Positions 34,674-42,202 of a stretch of DNA of 64,000 nt are shown here, piece after piece; the stretch's first letter is position 1, and every line of letters begins with the position of its first letter. A program made the position numbers and the translations under genes. The notes beneath the pieces are model-generated. The model searched no databases. It worked only from the letters and a program-made list of their open reading frames with translations, and was not told the origin of the DNA. The stretch is from Engelhardtia mirabilis (lineage in GTDB: Bacteria; Planctomycetota; UBA1135; GCA-002686595): the NCBI GenBank assembly GCA_007751255.1, contig CP036296.1:4712001-4776000 (forward strand), read 5' to 3'.

Positions 34674-35786
34674 ATGACGGCGGACACGGCACGGTCGGGA
34701 AGGGTCCACGGCGCGCGAGCCCTGCGACTCGCCCCCCGCGCCGTGGGCCGCGACCTGTCGCAACTCGCGAGCGAGGGCCTGGTGCGCCTGTCCTTCGACG
34801 AAGCGGGGCTCGAGCCCTCGGCCCGTCGCGCCCTCGAGGTCGCCGCCCTGGCGCGCCGCGACGGCCCCGGGACGCGGCGCACGCTGCTGTTGCCGCGCGC
34901 CCGACTGGAGCGGGAGGACGCTGCCGACGAGGGTCTCGACGAGCTGCTCGCCGCCTGGGACGCCGCGGCCTCCCCCTGCCCCGCTCCGCAACTCGTCGGC
35001 GTCTTGAACCTGACCCCGGACAGCTTCTCGGACGGTGGCGAACTCGACGGGCCCGCGGCCGCCGTCGCGCGCGCGCGGGCGCTGCTCGAGGCCGGCGCCG
35101 ACCTGCTGGACCTTGGCGGTGAGTCGACGCGCCCGGGCGCCGAGCCGATCTCGACCGAGGTCGAGCTGGAGCGCGTCCTGCCCACCCTGCGCGCCCTGGC
35201 CGACGCGGGCCTGGGCCCGATCTCGATCGACACGCGCCGCGCTCCCGTGGCCGCCGCCGCCCTCGCGGAGGGCGCCACGATCGTCAACGACGTCGAGGCC
35301 GGGACCCGCGACCGCGAGATGCTGCCCCTGGTAGCCGAGTCGGGCTGCGGCTACGTGGCCATGCACATGCGCGGGGATCCGCGGGACATGCAGCAGGCGC
35401 CGCGTTACACCGACGTGGTGGCGGAGGTGACCGAATTTCTGCGCGCGCGCCTGGCCGCCTGTGACGAGGCCGGCATCGACACCGAGCGCGTGTGGCTCGA
35501 CCCCGGCATCGGGTTCGGCAAGACCCTGGAACACAACTTGGCCCTGTTGGCCCGCCTGAACGAGCTGCGCTCCCTGGGGCGACCCCTGTTCGTGGGCGTG
35601 TCGCGCAAGCGCTTCATCGGAGTGCTGACTGACGAGCGCGAACCCGCGCGACGGGCCTTCGGCACGGCCGGGGCCATCGCGGCCTGCGTCGCCGGCGGGG
35701 CCCAGTGGCTGCGCGTGCACGACGTCGCGCCGATGCGCGCGGCCGCGCGCGTGGCGGCCGCCGTTGTCGGGAGGTCTGCGCCGTGA
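34674..35786 (+). CDS. folP: Dihydropteroate synthase with N-terminal extension
   Basis: 370 residues. The DHPS barrel starts at about residue 105 with VGVLNLTPDSFSDGGEL, then DLLDLGGESTRPGAEPIS, ISIDTRRA, IVNDVEAG, MHMRGDPRDMQ, WLDPGIGFGKT and FVGVSRKRFIG, all substrate-binding motifs for pterin pyrophosphate and p-aminobenzoate. The first about 100 residues form an extra Arg/Leu/Ala-rich domain I cannot name; the catalytic domain alone would be a normal-length FolP. The stop overlaps the start of the c-di-AMP synthase gene. Confidence 0.95.
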   Translation: MTADTARSGRVHGARALRLAPRAVGRDLSQLASEGLVRLSFDEAGLEPSARRALEVAALARRDGPGTRRTLLLPRARLEREDAADEGLDELLAAWDAAASPCPAPQLVGVLNLTPDSFSDGGELDGPAAAVARARALLEAGADLLDLGGESTRPGAEPISTEVELERVLPTLRALADAGLGPISIDTRRAPVAAAALAEGATIVNDVEAGTRDREMLPLVAESGCGYVAMHMRGDPRDMQQAPRYTDVVAEVTEFLRARLAACDEAGIDTERVWLDPGIGFGKTLEHNLALLARLNELRSLGRPLFVGVSRKRFIGVLTDEREPARRAFGTAGAIAACVAGGAQWLRVHDVAPMRAAARVAAAVVGRSAP

Positions 35787-37756
35787 GCTTGACGGCCTCC
35801 TGGATCCTCGAGCTGGTGCTGGTCGGCGCGGCGATCTACCTGTTCCTGCGCGTGGTGCGTCGCAGCCGCGGCAACCGCCTGGCGCGCGGGTTGATCGTCG
35901 CCTTCCTGCTGGGGGCGGTGGGCCTGTTCGGACTGACCGAGCTGCTCGAGCTGGAGGAGCTCGGCTTCCTGCTCGGCCACGTGACCGGCTACGTCTTGGT
36001 CGCCCTCGCCATCGTCTTCCAGCCGGAACTGCGGCGCGCGATCTCCCAGCTCGGCGAGAGCCACTTCCTGGTCGGACCCAGCGCGCGCCTCGCCCATCAG
36101 ACCGTCGACGACCTGGCCGCCGCCGCGCGCGGCCTGGCCAAGCGCCGTCACGGCGGCCTGATCGCGGTGCAGTGCGAGTCGTCCCTGCGCCCCTGGTTCG
36201 AGAAGGCGGTGGCCGTGGACGCGCCGGTGTCGCGCGCGCTCTTGCAGAGCATCTTCCAACCCGGGGGCATGCTGCACGACGGCGGCGTGGTGATCCGCGA
36301 GGACCGCATCGTGGCGGCCCAGTGCATCTTCCCCCTGTCCGAGAGCTCCGGCCTCTCCGCCTTCAGCGGCACGCGTCACCGCGCGGGGCTCGGCCTCTCC
36401 GAGGAGACGGACGCGCTCGCGATCGTGATCTCGGAAGAGACCGGCCGCATCACCCTGTTCCGCAACGGGCAGCGCGTCGGCCCGGTTCCGCCCCAGGAGC
36501 TCGACCACGTCCTGCGCGACCTCCTGGGTCTGGGCGCTTCCGGTGAGGCGGCCGCGGGTCAGCGCTTCGGCCTGGCCCCGATCTTCGCGGCCCTACGCGG
36601 TGACCTCACCTGGCTGGCCCTCTCGACCGCCGTCGCCGCCGCCATCCTGTGGGTCGTGCACGGGCAACTCGAGAGCAGCCAGCCCCTGTCCATGACCCTG
36701 CGATTGGCCGGTCCCACCGACACCTCTCCGGCCAGTTCGGGCGAGCTTGTGCTGCGGATGCCGGACGAAGGCTGGCTGCTCTCGACGGGCGGCGATGCGC
36801 CCACGGTGAACCTGACCCTGGGCGGTACCCGGCGTCAGATCGACCGCAGCGGCGTGCGCCTGGCCGGGGAGTGGAAGGTCCCCTCCCCCACGCCCGAGCA
36901 GCTGCCCCTGGATCTGCGACTGGTGAACTGGCGCGGGCGCGAACCCGGCCTGGAGCTCGAATGGACCGACGGGGAGCCACCGGTCGCCGAGCTCGAGCGC
37001 GTCCGCAGCCAGACCTTCGACCTGAGCCCCGAGCACCTGCCGATCGACGCCAGCGGCCTCGACCGGCGCTTCACCTGGGACCTGGCCGCCACGCAGATCC
37101 GGCCGCGTCAGGTGACCCTGCGCGGACCGGAGAGTGCCCTGGCGGAGCTGCTCGACGATCCCGACGCCGACCTCCTGGCGCCCCTGACCCTGCCCGCCGA
37201 CAGCCGCGGCGAGGTGACCCTGCGGATGGTCCTGTCGCCCGAGTTGGTGGCGCGCGGGGTGCTCCTGGCCAACGCCGAGGAAGTCGAGGTCGAGCTGCTG
37301 ATCCGCCCCTCGACCCGCGACGCGGGCACGGTCGAACGGGAGATCGCCGTGGGTTGCCTGGACCCCACCGTCGCCGCGCAGATCGACGAGTGGGCCATCG
37401 AGCTGCACGCGCGCACTGCCCGCCTGCGGATCGAGACCACGGGGCTGGTCCCGGCCGACACCAGCCCCGGCTCCGCCGCCGAGCTGGAGCGGGTCCAAGC
37501 CATCCGACGCTTCGTCGAGGACGCCGTCCACGTGTACGTCGACCTGGCGGAGTTGCCCGACGACGGCAGCAGCCAGAGCCTGCCCGTGCGCGTCACTTTG
37601 CGCCGAAACTGGCGCGACTCGCTTGCCGAGCTGGGGCTCGACGACGCTAGGCTCACGGGCGAGGAAGACCTCGTCTTGAAACTCGAAAGCGACCCCTACG
37701 TGTTCCTGACCCCCGTTGCCGGCACCGCCGGTGAGTCCGACAGCGACGACAGTTGA
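35783..37756 (+). CDS. cdaA: Diadenylate cyclase (CdaA-type) fused to YbbR/CdaR-like region
   Basis: 657 residues from a GTG overlapping the folP stop (GTGA). Residues 1-80 form about three membrane helices, as in CdaA. The DisA_N cyclase domain follows, with LHDGGVVI (about 166, normally DGA), the RHR motif TRHRAGLGLSEETDALAIVISEE (about 197) and an end near 255. Another membrane helix (about 275-295) leads into a large extracytoplasmic part resembling repeated YbbR domains (DRRFTWDLAATQIRPRQVTLRGP). CdaA and its regulator CdaR/YbbR are usually separate neighbouring genes, so a single fused polypeptide is notable. Makes c-di-AMP from two ATP. glmM follows directly, the classical context. Confidence 0.85.
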   Translation: MSLTASWILELVLVGAAIYLFLRVVRRSRGNRLARGLIVAFLLGAVGLFGLTELLELEELGFLLGHVTGYVLVALAIVFQPELRRAISQLGESHFLVGPSARLAHQTVDDLAAAARGLAKRRHGGLIAVQCESSLRPWFEKAVAVDAPVSRALLQSIFQPGGMLHDGGVVIREDRIVAAQCIFPLSESSGLSAFSGTRHRAGLGLSEETDALAIVISEETGRITLFRNGQRVGPVPPQELDHVLRDLLGLGASGEAAAGQRFGLAPIFAALRGDLTWLALSTAVAAAILWVVHGQLESSQPLSMTLRLAGPTDTSPASSGELVLRMPDEGWLLSTGGDAPTVNLTLGGTRRQIDRSGVRLAGEWKVPSPTPEQLPLDLRLVNWRGREPGLELEWTDGEPPVAELERVRSQTFDLSPEHLPIDASGLDRRFTWDLAATQIRPRQVTLRGPESALAELLDDPDADLLAPLTLPADSRGEVTLRMVLSPELVARGVLLANAEEVEVELLIRPSTRDAGTVEREIAVGCLDPTVAAQIDEWAIELHARTARLRIETTGLVPADTSPGSAAELERVQAIRRFVEDAVHVYVDLAELPDDGSSQSLPVRVTLRRNWRDSLAELGLDDARLTGEEDLVLKLESDPYVFLTPVAGTAGESDSDDS

Positions 37757-39151
37757 ATGGGTGGTCGCAACGCTGATGGTCGCCCGAGGCTGTTCGGGAC
37801 CGACGGGATCCGTGGCCGCGCCGGCGAGGGCTGGCTGCGCGAGGATCGTGCCGCGGTGCTCGGTCGGGCCGTGGCCGCGGTGCTGGGCGAGTCCCTACCC
37901 GGCACGCCGCGCGCGCTGATCGGCCACGACGGCCGGCGCTCCGGGCCCGGCCTCCTGGCGGCGATCGGCCACGGCATGGCCGAAGCGGGATTCCATGTGG
38001 ACGGCGTCGGCCTGATCACGACTCCTGGGCTGGCGGTGCTGACCCGCGACGGCGACTACGCCGTCGGCGTGATGATCAGCGCCTCCCACAATCCGGCCCA
38101 CGACAACGGCATCAAGATCTTCGACGAACACGGGGGCAAGCTCGGCGACGACGTCGAGGACGCGATCCAGCGCTACGTCGAAGCCCACGGCGAGCCCGTG
38201 CGGGAACGACGGGGAGCGCGGCACGGCGAGGCCGTGCTCGAGTCGAAGTACGTCGAGTACCTGCTGCGGATCGCGTCGGACCTGGACCTGAGTGGTCTGC
38301 GGATCGTCCTGGACTGCGCCAACGGCGGCGGCAGCCACGTGGCGCCGCGGACCCTCGAGGCCCTGGGCGCCGACCTGACCCTGATCGCCGCCGATCCGGA
38401 CGGGGACAACATCAACCGCGACTGCGGATCGACCAAGCCCCAGGCCCTGCAGGCCGCGGTGATCGAGCTCGGCGCCGACCTGGGCGTGGCCCTGGACGGC
38501 GACGGCGACCGCTGCGTGCTGGTCGACGAGCGCGGTGAGCTGGTCGACGGCGACGCGATGCTGACGCTGCTCGCCATCGACGCCAAGCAACGCCGCCTGC
38601 TCACGGGCGACGCGATCGTGGCGACCGTGATGAGCAACAAGGGACTGCACAAGGCCCTTTCTGAAGCGGGCGTCGGCGTGCACACCGTGGGCGTCGGCGA
38701 CCGGCGCGTGGTCGAGGGTCTGCGCCAGCACGGCCTCAGCCTGGGCGGCGAGCAGTCCGGCCACGTCCTGTTCGAGGTCGATCAGGATCCCGGTGACCAG
38801 CGGCCCTCGGCCCTGATCGGCGACGGGACCCTGACGGCCCTGCGGGTGATGGCGGCCATGCGTCGCGCCGGTACGTCCCTTTCGACCCTGGCCGGCACCT
38901 TCCGGGCCTTCCCCCAGGTGCTCGTCAACCAGGTGGTGGCCGACAAGCCGCCCTTCGAGGAGCTGCCAGGGGTCCTGGACGAGGTGCGCCGGATCGAGAG
39001 CGAGTTGGGCGACGAGGGCCGCGTTCTGCTGCGCTACTCGGGCACCGAGTCCCTCGCTCGGGTGATGGTCGAGGGCCCCGATGAGGCGCTGATCCTGTCC
39101 TACGCCGACGGCCTGGCCGCGATCATCGCCGCTCGAATCGCGGACCGATGA
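37757..39151 (+). CDS. glmM: Phosphoglucosamine mutase
   Basis: 464 residues. It interconverts glucosamine 6- and 1-phosphate for UDP-GlcNAc, hence peptidoglycan and LPS. Visible: LFGTDGIRG near the N-terminus, phosphoserine loop GVMISASHNPAHDNGIKIF (Ser about 112), metal loop ALDGDGDRC, sugar-binding GEQSGHVLF and phosphate-binding RYSGTESLARVM near the C-terminus. The ATG directly follows the cdaA stop, so the two are co-translated, consistent with the known cdaA-cdaR-glmM arrangement in which CdaA/CdaR contact GlmM. Confidence 0.97.
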   Translation: MGGRNADGRPRLFGTDGIRGRAGEGWLREDRAAVLGRAVAAVLGESLPGTPRALIGHDGRRSGPGLLAAIGHGMAEAGFHVDGVGLITTPGLAVLTRDGDYAVGVMISASHNPAHDNGIKIFDEHGGKLGDDVEDAIQRYVEAHGEPVRERRGARHGEAVLESKYVEYLLRIASDLDLSGLRIVLDCANGGGSHVAPRTLEALGADLTLIAADPDGDNINRDCGSTKPQALQAAVIELGADLGVALDGDGDRCVLVDERGELVDGDAMLTLLAIDAKQRRLLTGDAIVATVMSNKGLHKALSEAGVGVHTVGVGDRRVVEGLRQHGLSLGGEQSGHVLFEVDQDPGDQRPSALIGDGTLTALRVMAAMRRAGTSLSTLAGTFRAFPQVLVNQVVADKPPFEELPGVLDEVRRIESELGDEGRVLLRYSGTESLARVMVEGPDEALILSYADGLAAIIAARIADR

Positions 39152-39909
39152 GCGGCCCGAACTTTGGGCCCGATGCGGGCTCGTCCATGGGTCGCTCGAG
39201 CGACCCACAGGGCGGCGACCCCGAGCTACTGATCGCATTCGAGACGTCGACCCGCGCCCCCAGCGTGGCCGTCGCACGCAGGGGCGGTGAGATCCACACT
39301 GCTTCGCTCGAGGGCCAGCGCGCCCATGCGCGCGACCTCTTGCCGACCCTGGCGCGGCTGCTCGAGTCCATCGACGCAAAGGTGGGCGATGTCACCGCCA
39401 TCGGCGTGGGCCTGGGCCCCGGGAGCTTCACCGGTCTGCGCGTGGGTCTCGCCACGGTGCTCGGTCTCGAGCGTGCCCTGGGAGTGCCCACGGTCGGCGT
39501 GGCGTCCATGGCCGCGGCGGTCTTCGACCACCTGGCACCCGGCGCCGTCGGCGGACAGCTACTCGATGCCCGCGGCGGTCGCGTCTACCTCGGTGCCTTC
39601 CGTCGTCAGGGTGACGGCTTGGCCACGGTGCAGGAGGTCTGCGCGCCGAAGCCGGCGGAGCTGCGGACGCTGCTCGCCGCCGAGCCCTGGTGCGCCACCG
39701 ATCCGCGGCCGACGCTGTTCATCGACGACGACGCGCGGCGCGCCGCCGGCGACGCACTCGGGGACGGCGAGTCGGGGCCCCGCGTCGCCACAGGAATCGC
39801 GCCACGCGCCGAAGCCGTCCTGAGACTCGCCCGCGACGAACTCGTCCGCGGGACCGCCGCTCCTGCTGGCAGTCTGCGGCCGCTGTACTTGGCTCGATTC
39901 GGCGAATAG
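39148..39909 (+). CDS. tsaB: tRNA threonylcarbamoyladenosine biosynthesis protein TsaB
   Basis: 253 residues. After a 25-residue Gly/Ser-rich leader come the ASKHA-type motifs LLIAFETSTRAPSVAVARR, the conserved IGVGLGPGSFTGLRVGLATVLGL and DARGGRVYLGAF. TsaB pairs with TsaD and TsaE to make t6A37 in ANN-decoding tRNAs. The ATG overlaps the glmM stop (ATGA). It is the last gene of the ftsH-folP-cdaA-glmM-tsaB run and ends before the bidirectional terminator at 40107. Confidence 0.93.
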   Translation: MSGPNFGPDAGSSMGRSSDPQGGDPELLIAFETSTRAPSVAVARRGGEIHTASLEGQRAHARDLLPTLARLLESIDAKVGDVTAIGVGLGPGSFTGLRVGLATVLGLERALGVPTVGVASMAAAVFDHLAPGAVGGQLLDARGGRVYLGAFRRQGDGLATVQEVCAPKPAELRTLLAAEPWCATDPRPTLFIDDDARRAAGDALGDGESGPRVATGIAPRAEAVLRLARDELVRGTAAPAGSLRPLYLARFGE

Positions 39910-40106
39910 ACGCCCAGGACAGGCCCGGTAGCCCTCGGACGCTGCGGGTGGAGATCCGTCGAGCCGTCCTGCGCGCAGCCTCGAATTCGCTCCGAACTCG
40001 GCCCCGAGCGAAACGCTGCCCAATCGGATCGGGGCCACGACGGTTGTTGCGAACGAAGGCCGCTGCCTACGAAGATTGCCGCGAACGAAGACTGCTGCGA
40101 AAGAAG

Positions 40107-40137
40107 AGAGCCCGCCACGCGATGCGCGGCGGGCTCT
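40107..40137. terminator. Bidirectional terminator between tsaB and the histone gene
   Basis: A perfect 10-bp stem agagcccgcc/ggcgggctct closes on an 11-nt loop that can itself pair partly. On the minus strand it is followed by CTCTTCTTTC, a good U-rich tail. On the plus strand the tail is weak (cttgattc). It can therefore serve the convergent tsaB and histone transcripts. Confidence 0.65.
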
Positions 40138-40234
40138 TGATTCACTGGCAACGGACGAACCCACTGAGGCTCGGACGTCTCCAGTCCACTCGCTCCGGAG
40201 CGCGCTCCCGAAGGTCCAGTACCCGAAGGTCCCG

Positions 40235-40304
40235 GCCCCGAGGGCACAGCCCCGAGGGCGCAGCGCCGAGGGCGCAGCCCCGAGGGCACAGCGCCGAAGG
40301 ACGG
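40235..40304. repeat. Tandem 14-bp repeats (about five units)
   Basis: Units such as gccccgagggcaca and gcgccgagggcgca follow head to tail from 40235 and decay at gcgccgaaggacgg (40291-40304), directly before the histone stop codon complement at 40306. Looser GAAGGTCC-type units precede them (40208-40234). They lie in the 3' untranslated region of the histone gene. Confidence 0.7.
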
Positions 40305-40305
40305 C

Positions 40306-40575
40306 CTACAGGTCGTGCGGACGGAGGGTCTTGCGACCGTTGTCGACAGCGCGCTGCTCGGCACCCGCGATCAGGCCGCGAACGGCCGCGTCGAGGGCGG
40401 CGTAGAACTCGCCGGAGACGTTGATACCAGCGGCCGCCTTGGTGCGGCTCTTGCTGATGATGAAGTCAGCGGCGGAGGCCTTCGTGCGGCGGCCGGCAGC
40501 CTTCTTGGTGGAGCGCTTGGCGCCGCGGGCCGGAGCCTTGCGGGCGACTTTTTTCTTGGCTTTCTTCTTGGCCAT
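40306..40575 (-). CDS. Bacterial histone-fold protein with lysine-rich N-terminal tail
   Basis: 89 residues. Residues 1-36 form a disordered basic tail (16 Lys/Arg in the first 32; KKKAKKK, KRSTKKAAGRR) like histone H1/Hc1 tails. Residues 37-89 match a histone fold: short helix 1 (ISKSRTKAAAG), loop INVSG, long helix 2 (EFYAALDAAVRGLIAGAEQRA) and loop 2 with GRKTLRPHDL, the same position and pattern as GRKTIKAEDI of archaeal histones. The chain ends right after this motif, so helix 3 is nearly absent, as in the short bacterial histones described from Bdellovibrio and Leptospira. It probably binds and bends or coats DNA as a dimer. It is monocistronic and convergent to tsaB. Confidence 0.8.
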   Translation of the reverse strand: MAKKKAKKKVARKAPARGAKRSTKKAAGRRTKASAADFIISKSRTKAAAGINVSGEFYAALDAAVRGLIAGAEQRAVDNGRKTLRPHDL

Positions 40576-40939
40576 GATCGATCTGATGATTTTCGCAGCG
40601 AGTTGCCCTCGAGGGCGATTCGGCCTGTCCCGTCGGCAAGCTCAATGAGGTTGCGTCCGGGGCGTGTCGTCCACGAGGGACGTTCACGAGGGTCGTCGGC
40701 GAGTCGGCGTCGAGGGGGGATGCTGCGAGTGGTGTCGGACGAGAGAAGTGATGAGGCTGCCCTCGAACCGTATGACGCGCCCAGAGAATGGGAGTCCGCA
40801 CAGGCGATGTCAACGACGCTATTTGGCGGCTCCCCTCCGAATTCGCCCTTTCCCGCCCCGTCGTTCCGGTCGCGGTACCCGCGGCGCCCGCCCCTTTGAC
40901 GATCGGCGCTGACTGCATGCCTGGTCGCCGACCAGGAGC
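40576..40939. other. Divergent intergenic region between histone and alr genes
   Basis: 364 bp without a supported gene. The histone start is preceded by an AT-richer run (gaaaatcatcagatcg on the minus strand) and no Shine-Dalgarno. Near alr lies the small inverted repeat at 40921-40935. Confidence 0.5.
40921..40935. promoter_or_regulatory. Inverted repeat just upstream of the alr -10 box
   Basis: ctggtc-gcc-gaccag is a perfect 6-bp dyad ending 4 nt before the TACCCT box. Its position would suit an operator, but it is short and could be chance. Confidence 0.25.
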
Positions 40940-40945
40940 TACCCT
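40940..40945 (+). promoter_or_regulatory. -10-like box TACCCT upstream of alr
   Basis: It ends 6 nt before the GTG at 40952 and abuts another GTG at 40946. The spacing seen at other genes of this window favours 40952 as the start. Confidence 0.4.
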
Positions 40946-40951
40946 GTGGCG

Positions 40952-42202
40952 GTGAACGTCCCCCGCGTCTGGGCCGAGATCGACCTCGCGGCTCTCGAGC
41001 ACAACCTGCGCGCGATCCGCGCGCGGATCGGACCCGCGGTGGAGCTGATCCTGGTGGTCAAGGCCGATGCCTATGGCCACGGCGCCGTCGCCATCGCGCG
41101 GCGAGCGGCGGCCCTGGGCGTGATCGCCTTCGGCGTGGGAACGGTCGAGGAGGCCCTCGAACTGGGCGCTGCGGGCATCCGCGGACGAATGATCGTCCTG
41201 GGGACGATCGTCGACGAGGAGGCCGAACCGGCCCTGCGGGGCGGGGTCGAGTTGGGTGTTCACTCCGCCGATCGCGTGCGAATGCTTTCGGCCCTGGCGG
41301 TGAAGCTGGGACTCACCGCACGGGTGCACCTCAACGTCGACACCGGCATGGGGCGCCTGGGCTCCGGGCCCGCGCGGGCCCTCGAGTTGCTCGAGGAGAT
41401 CCACGCCAGCCCCGGCCTCGAGCTCGCCGGCAGCATGACCCACGTGGCCTCCTCGCGGGGCGCGGACGACCCCGGTACAGCGGCGCAACTGCGCTCCTTC
41501 GACCAGTACCTCGGGCCCGCGCGCGAACGCGGCCTCTTGCGCGGTTGGACCCACGTGGCCAACTCGGCCTGCATCTTCACCGGACTCGAACCGCGCTTCG
41601 ACGCCGTGCGGCCCGGGATCGCCGCCCTGGGCATGCTTCCGGCGGAGATGGGCGTGATTCCCGCCGGGGGCGGCCGCCTCGAGGCCCTGCGCCCGGTGCT
41701 CTCGCTGCGCAGCCAGGTGGTGTTCTTCAAGGACGTCGAACCGGGCACGCCGATCGGCTACGGCGGCACCTGGAGGGCCACGCGGCGCTCGCGCATCGCG
41801 ACCCTGCCGGTGGGCTACAACGACGGTGTGCCGTGGCGACTGGGCAACCGCGGACGGGCCCTGATCCGCGGCTGCGAGGTGCCCATCGTCGGTCGCGTCT
41901 CGATGGACTACACCACCATCGACATCACCGACGCACCCGGCGCTGACGTCGGCGACGTGGTGACCCTGATCGGACGCGACGGCGAGCGCGAGCTCTCGGC
42001 CAGTTGCCTCGCCGACGAGGCCGGCACGATCCCCTACGAGATCACCTGCTCGATCGGTCGGCGGGTGCCGCGCATGATCGTGGAGGGCGACGCGCGTCCA
42101 TTCGCGGGCCGTTCGGCCAGCAGCGCGGACCAGGATCCCTCCAACGCGGATCGGAGCGGCGCGGCCGCCGAATCGACAGTTGCACCGGGGGCGACGCCGT
42201 GA
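40952..42202 (+). CDS. alr: Alanine racemase
   Basis: 416 residues; fold-type III PLP enzyme making D-alanine for peptidoglycan. PLP-Lys lies in LILVVKADAYGHGA (Lys about 37), the glycine-rich and dimer region follow (HLNVDTGMGRLG), and the catalytic Tyr sits in PIGYGGTWRATRRSRIATLPVGYNDG. Then come VPIVGRVSMDYTTIDIT and VTLIGRDGE. A poorly conserved Ala/Ser-rich tail of about 35 residues extends past the usual C-terminus. A GTG at 40946 would add two residues. Its stop overlaps the start of the AsmA-like gene (GTGA). Confidence 0.96.
   Translation: MNVPRVWAEIDLAALEHNLRAIRARIGPAVELILVVKADAYGHGAVAIARRAAALGVIAFGVGTVEEALELGAAGIRGRMIVLGTIVDEEAEPALRGGVELGVHSADRVRMLSALAVKLGLTARVHLNVDTGMGRLGSGPARALELLEEIHASPGLELAGSMTHVASSRGADDPGTAAQLRSFDQYLGPARERGLLRGWTHVANSACIFTGLEPRFDAVRPGIAALGMLPAEMGVIPAGGGRLEALRPVLSLRSQVVFFKDVEPGTPIGYGGTWRATRRSRIATLPVGYNDGVPWRLGNRGRALIRGCEVPIVGRVSMDYTTIDITDAPGADVGDVVTLIGRDGERELSASCLADEAGTIPYEITCSIGRRVPRMIVEGDARPFAGRSASSADQDPSNADRSGAAAESTVAPGATP

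Follow-up and report, generated by a model that had tools for sequence, protein, structure and literature searches.

Is a small, strongly basic protein encoded in a planctomycete genome a histone, to which class of histones does it belong, and does it stand in for HU or beside it? The question arises from a 64,000-nucleotide stretch of Engelhardtia mirabilis DNA (assembly GCA_007751255.1, contig CP036296.1, positions 4,712,001 to 4,776,000; hereafter the window), in which a minus-strand open reading frame runs from an ATG at 40575 to a stop codon ending at 40306. Its product of 89 amino acids has a calculated pI of 11.5 and closes with the ten residues GRKTLRPHDL. A reading made from the sequence alone had described a tailed histone with hardly any helix 3 in a probable planctomycete. 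The host assignment was borne out, the closest named record being the complete genome of Planctomycetes bacterium Pla163 (L001; 79% identity over aa 17-89). In the literature that we searched, with subscription journals and preprints outside its scope, bench work on bacterial face-to-face (FtF) histones has Leptospira as its subject, whose histone is described as probably essential and from which HU is reported to be missing (PMC12701072, PMC10627809); no such study of an FtF histone from a planctomycete was found. The features of the locus are collected in Table 1.

Table 1. Features of the histone locus, in window coordinates
Feature	Coordinates	Strand	Evidence
tsaB-like gene (Pfam TsaD domain), convergent neighbour	39148..39909	+	Pfam PF00814, E 4e-20
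Terminator-like hairpin, ~170 bp past the histone stop, between convergent histone and tsaB	40107..40137	-	Pattern scan and inverted repeat; consensus match only
Histone gene, 89 aa, ATG start	40306..40575	-	Translation; third-position bias; match in 46/61 genomes searched, own included
FtF signature and loop 2, aa 75-89: R75, N79, R81, T83, D88, C-terminal L89	40309..40353	-	Spacing as in D4GZE0
Histone-fold core, aa 37-89	40309..40467	-	Profile match to HLp 9qt0 and HTkC 9f2c; 9qt1 as nearest fold of the core model
Helix alpha2 (dimer helix), aa 55-78	40342..40413	-	AlphaFold2, aa 51-80 with pLDDT block means of 80-94
Basic N-terminal tail, aa 1-36, predicted disordered	40468..40575	-	Composition (16 K/R, no D/E); AlphaFold2
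alr, alanine racemase, divergent neighbour	40946..42202	+	Pfam PF01168, PF00842

Relationship to FtF histones

Queried as a single sequence, the protein matched no Pfam family at E <= 10, and Pfam and NCBIfam together returned nothing useful, a match to Rv3852 being sub-threshold (E 0.39); against the Protein Data Bank it found HTkC (9f2c) at E 0.0012. The histone fold put forward in the sequence-only reading was upheld when we used a profile of 36 sequences (profile A2, comprising the window protein, L001-L009 and 26 further relatives). Histones came out best, with HLp (9qt0) of Leptospira perolatii at E 2.2e-9 and HTkC of Thermococcus kodakarensis at E 3.5e-9, followed after a gap by HmvA (8bdk, 0.011), a histone H2A (8ua7, 0.019) and HBb (0.028). 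Across the same 36 aligned proteins, Pfam matches were all weak: one to the archaeal-histone family (E 0.00029), three to the core-histone family and seven to DUF1931, while the unrelated DUF6465 was matched by nine (best E 0.0028). Four weak matches elsewhere in the same genome (L011-L014) were considered as further histones and rejected, their translations lacking a histone look.

The residues described in PMC11390915 as the most strongly conserved of FtF histones (R41, N45, R47, T49 and D54 in D4GZE0 numbering) recur with identical spacing as R75, N79, R81, T83 and D88; R75 is present in 35 of the 36 aligned proteins and each of the other four in all 36. The chain ends at L89, one residue after D88, as FtF histones do, and the exposed alpha1 lysine that is conserved in FtF histones has its counterpart at the sequence level in K46, which is found in 36/36 proteins and aligns with K17 of HLp. 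In the profile alignment, R75, N79 and R81 fall on R49, N53 and R55 of HLp, the residues that hold its tetramer together and are called conserved among predicted tetrameric bacterial FtF histones (PMC12701072), and HLp D62 corresponds to D88. At the places of R75 and N79, HBb has Ser and Asp and HTkC has Arg and Glu; N79 is not strictly diagnostic, because HTkC is itself an FtF histone. Since the signature residues, their spacing and the C-terminal end match, the tested features fit an FtF histone, and by these features the protein very probably belongs to that class.

AlphaFold2 modelled the whole protein with a mean pLDDT of 67.9 and a pTM of 0.44, with a good helix 2 and a disordered tail (pLDDT under 50 at aa 1-6, 8-22 and 24-26); the core modelled alone reached a mean pLDDT of 81.8 and a pTM of 0.58. 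In the core model, helix 2 is long (aa 55-78), helix 1 is short and poorly predicted (aa 44-47; the weak part of the model, with block means of 57 and 72), and helix 3 has only three residues, in agreement with the earlier description of that helix as almost missing. With alpha2 at 55-78, a three-residue alpha3 and the end at L89, the prediction contains the truncated alpha3 at the very C-terminus that is a trait of FtF histones. The full-length alpha3 and longer alpha2 of archaeal nucleosomal histones (HMf/HTk) are absent from a chain that ends one residue after the RD-clamp Asp, and HMfA stands at fold rank 39. Foldseek placed the HLp-DNA structure 9qt1 first and HTkC 9f2c second for both the whole and the core model (probability 1.00), at modest E-values of which none was under 0.001 (about 0.04 for the whole model and 0.0089 for the core against 9qt1); the core model matched 9qt1 with a TM of 0.80 on the query.

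HLp, the best match by profile and by fold, is described as having the same single short histone fold and a one-turn C-terminal helix 3 (9qt0, 9qt1, 9qt2; PMC12701072). It differs in that its 63 aa include only a short N-terminal extension, against the 36-residue basic tail here, the helix 1/loop 1 region is three residues shorter here, and no residue here corresponds to K21 of HLp, which contacts DNA (PMC12701072). HTkC, second by both measures, has the same core fold (9f2c; PMC11390915); it is archaeal, its 59-aa chain has no long basic tail, and E stands in the place of N79.

The basic tail

The first 36 residues had been called a lysine/arginine tail, and so they proved: they hold 16 K/R and no D/E, and the core (aa 37-89) holds 8 K/R and 6 D/E. 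All 35 relatives extracted carry a basic N-terminal stretch of 11-48 aa, without D/E and variable in sequence, when the start codon is set to the closest in-frame ATG lying over 10 residues upstream of the core, a rule that cannot yield a tail-less start and does not weigh GTG or TTG. An ATG nearer than the chosen start exists in only two rows (L009 and L039). Apart from L009, a Bacteriovoracaceae record, the remaining 34 are planctomycete relatives of the same family and order; the count omits L016, L019 and L028, whose gene repeats that of another genome, and L010, which is the window gene itself. Elsewhere in the phylum the basic tail is not universal: members L065, L068 and L069 begin with a very short N-terminal segment in which acidic residues occur.

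The resemblance to eukaryotic H1 or chlamydial Hc1 proposed earlier holds in composition only. As a family relationship it did not stand, for among the 36 aligned proteins a single one gave a weak HC2 match (E 0.023), and no linker-histone family occurred among the 25/26 families listed. The tail might still do most of the work as an H1/Hc1-like cationic condenser of DNA, with the core serving as a dimerising or tetramerising clip, which would be compatible with the FtF explanation. Such a role would suit a protein in which 16 of 24 K/R sit in the tail and the core has a low net charge (+2 in the query, +1 to +5 in the 35 relatives), but it is the core that is far better conserved in the 36-sequence alignment, its loop-2 and tetramer residues being nearly invariant, whereas tail length ranges from 11 to 48 aa within the family and order and the three phylum members above have very short, partly acidic N-termini. 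We consider this reading possible but unlikely.

The fold of HupB-type HU is unrelated to the histone fold. HupB-type HU with a basic tail and the protein described here are alike in being small nucleoid proteins with a basic, Lys-rich tail; the former is named in PMC10919886 and in the reference list of PMC11317129. The proposal that a tailed, helix-3-less histone constitutes a new architecture had to be abandoned, because both features are known for bacterial FtF histones: published descriptions give HLp, and also the dimer histone HBb, a truncated helix 3 (PMC11390915; PMC12701072), and positively charged tails are reported for most bacterial FtF histones, with Planctomycetota among the phyla named (PMC11390915). 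The protein is a further member of the described FtF family, and its tail is real but expected.

Proposed assembly on DNA

Taken as a whole, the best explanation, and one that we regard as distinctly probable, is an FtF nucleoid histone that works beside HU; its basis is family resemblance, fold, signature residues, tail composition, a conserved place in two families and the presence of HU in the genome. Two monomers would pair through helix 2, and two dimers would join at both ends through R75, N79, R81 and C-terminal residues to give a closed tetramer of about 38 kDa, the predicted structure by which the FtF family is defined. Roughly 50-70 bp of DNA would wrap around this tetramer, or the tetramer would bridge two duplexes, and the disordered Lys/Arg tails, four per tetramer, could make further contacts of a non-specific kind, through which nearby DNA would be neutralised or bridged. 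A function in the nucleoid is very probable, and tetramer formation with DNA wrapping, by homology with HLp and HTkC, is fairly likely, an MNase ladder of 35-72 bp being reported for HLp (PMC12701072); the case for a bridging role of the tail is about evenly balanced. The same two proteins suggest that the histone may be highly abundant.

The protein could instead remain a dimer and bend or coat DNA without wrapping it, as in the case of HBb (Bd0055) of Bdellovibrio (8cmp, 8fvx, 9ezz), which is described as having the short helix 2, one-turn helix 3 and RD clamp that are also present here (PMC10627809, PMC11317129). The core model fits HBb with a TM of 0.75-0.77 on the query, the RKT...D motif is common to both, and bacterial dimers are also reported in Planctomycetota (PMC11390915). 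The same source, however, says that bacterial dimers lack the dimer-dimer Arg and Asn, and HBb indeed has S and D in the places where the present family keeps both residues, in 35/36 and 36/36 proteins; the profile match to HBb is likewise weak, at E 0.028 against 2e-9 to 4e-9 for FtF histones. A permanently dimeric histone is thus quite improbable here.

Distribution and genomic site

A single-sequence search (E <= 0.001) covered 61 genomes, namely the own genome and those of the same family and the same order, and found a histone match in 46. The 15 genomes without the gene indicate that the histone is dispensable in the group, an absence that rests on the single-sequence search, the more sensitive profile having been run on only some of them; with the profile, G018, G024 and G043 were also without a match. 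In a sample of the phylum, the profile gave a match at E 0.001 or better in 116 of 294 genomes. A pattern requiring R.T and D recovered 11 of the 12 phylum loci L061-L072 (not L064), and all 11 also have Asn at N79 and Arg at R75, although these loci, being among the best-scoring matches, need not be representative of all 116.

The sequence-only reading had placed the gene next to core genes, and Pfam domains nearby agree: a CdaA-like cyclase, a GlmM-type phosphomutase, TsaD/TsaB and alanine racemase. The convergent neighbour has a lone TsaD-type domain and is presumably tsaB, the name used here. In all 33 distinct loci for which both neighbours were fetched, the histone gene sits in the tsaB-alr interval and is encoded on the other strand, the two neighbours being 492-2556 bp (median 712) apart; these loci come from families f1 and f5 or are the named records L001-L008. 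Both neighbours were present in 33 of 54 distinct loci, one in 7 and none in 14, a count that omits L009 (Bacteriovoracaceae), loci with identical cores and any that gave no tblastn hit at 1e-4 (e.g., L062, L064, L070). Some of the 14 neighbour-less loci are at contig ends, but most are complete +-1.5 kb stretches belonging to different families within the order or phylum (e.g., L055, L058, L060), in which the gene has another location; conservation of the site is thus confined to f1 and f5. The neighbourhood also differs from that in many Leptospira, for which smc, map and DUF350 are reported (PMC12701072).

Among the 15 histone-less genomes, alr was found in 14 and tsaB beside it in 13, with a tsaB-alr gap of about 27-124 bp as extrapolated from tblastn ends. 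Such gaps make the absence at the site real, with no assembly gap, and both loss and never having had the gene fit. A RecA tree was drawn from 46 of the 61 genomes and comprises 43, as G003, G008 and G017 gave no RecA; on it, presence and absence require six changes, at least three of which are forced by well-supported branches. Eight loci (L003, L017, L018, L041, L042, L056, L057 and L059) have a tsaB-alr gap of 1.2-2.6 kb, far longer than the median of 712 bp, and may therefore contain something in addition to the histone gene.

The intergenic stretch between tsaB and the histone contains two short tandem arrays, at 40037-40116 (period 16) and 40227-40300 (period 14), the latter starting 5-8 bases past the histone stop codon along the histone strand. 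The terminator pattern scan found 2 sites against 0.7 expected. No sigma-70-like promoter was found by pattern scan in 39850-41000, a consensus that says little in a planctomycete, and Rfam gave nothing in the window at gathering thresholds. A 683-aa ORF at 35705-37756 begins with a diadenylate cyclase part of CdaA type (DAC, E 3.9e-34, with CdaA_N short of its cut-off at E 0.0011) and continues for about 430 residues without a Pfam family at E <= 1; its position before glmM suggests a CdaA-CdaR fusion.

Codon-by-codon comparison with five relatives identified the minus frame of the histone as the conserved one, because the differences fall mainly at third codon positions (12 to 28 of the 52 core codons differ there, compared with 4 to 8 at the first and second positions). 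That the ORF is spurious and lies opposite a real gene, as a 194-aa plus-strand ORF overlapping it in a window of 70% GC might suggest, is a negligible prospect in view of this third-position bias, homologues in 46 of the 61 genomes, the same place in 33/33 testable loci, the fold match, and a frame kept in close relatives with no internal stop in any match of the 61-genome search.

Coexistence with HU

A single HU-family gene (L015, G000:C1:5224048-5224311) is present in the 6.95 Mb of the E. mirabilis genome (2 contigs), and an HU-family gene was found in 60 of the 61 genomes, the exception (G019) being 67% complete. The suggestion of a chromatin distinct from HU-based ones fails because the genome has HU, as do the others of those 60. 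In this respect E. mirabilis differs from L. interrogans and L. perolatii, in which HU is reported absent (PMC12701072). The L015 product carries a C-terminal extension with many Pro and Glu.

In G004, G006, G012, G018, G024, G025, G026 and G030 (L073-L080) and in G007, G023 and G056 (L081-L083), an HU-like protein of divergent sequence shares a conserved NPFT...AKPA motif. These 11 copies were selected by eye among the HU matches, on a length of 285-288 bp and E-values from 1.6e-17 to 7.5e-11; further HU matches that were short or weak did not enter the count. A Lys-rich N-terminal stretch, again judged by eye, is present in 10 of the 11. So defined, it is commoner where the histone is missing, in 8/15 histone-less genomes versus 3/46 carriers (Fisher p 0.00025) and, within family f1, in 8/12 versus 2/25. 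On the RecA tree of 43 genomes the association comprises few events, with three independent pairs on well-supported branches, and relatedness may be behind it. In this planctomycete family, the tailed FtF histone and the divergent HU-like protein could be interchangeable architectural proteins, with lineages that lose the histone cleanly from the tsaB-alr gap keeping or gaining the HU-like one, a tentative idea to which we give a low probability.

What is new here is the fixed tsaB-alr site in two families together with the histone/HU pattern, and the finding leaves knowledge of the kinds of chromatin unchanged. In this group a tailed FtF histone is found alongside HU, and close relatives, the named genome Pla163 among them, show its presence or absence at a single fixed site. 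Together, the tail, the coexistence with HU and the presence or absence at a fixed site make the role of a tailed bacterial histone, and its replacement, testable.
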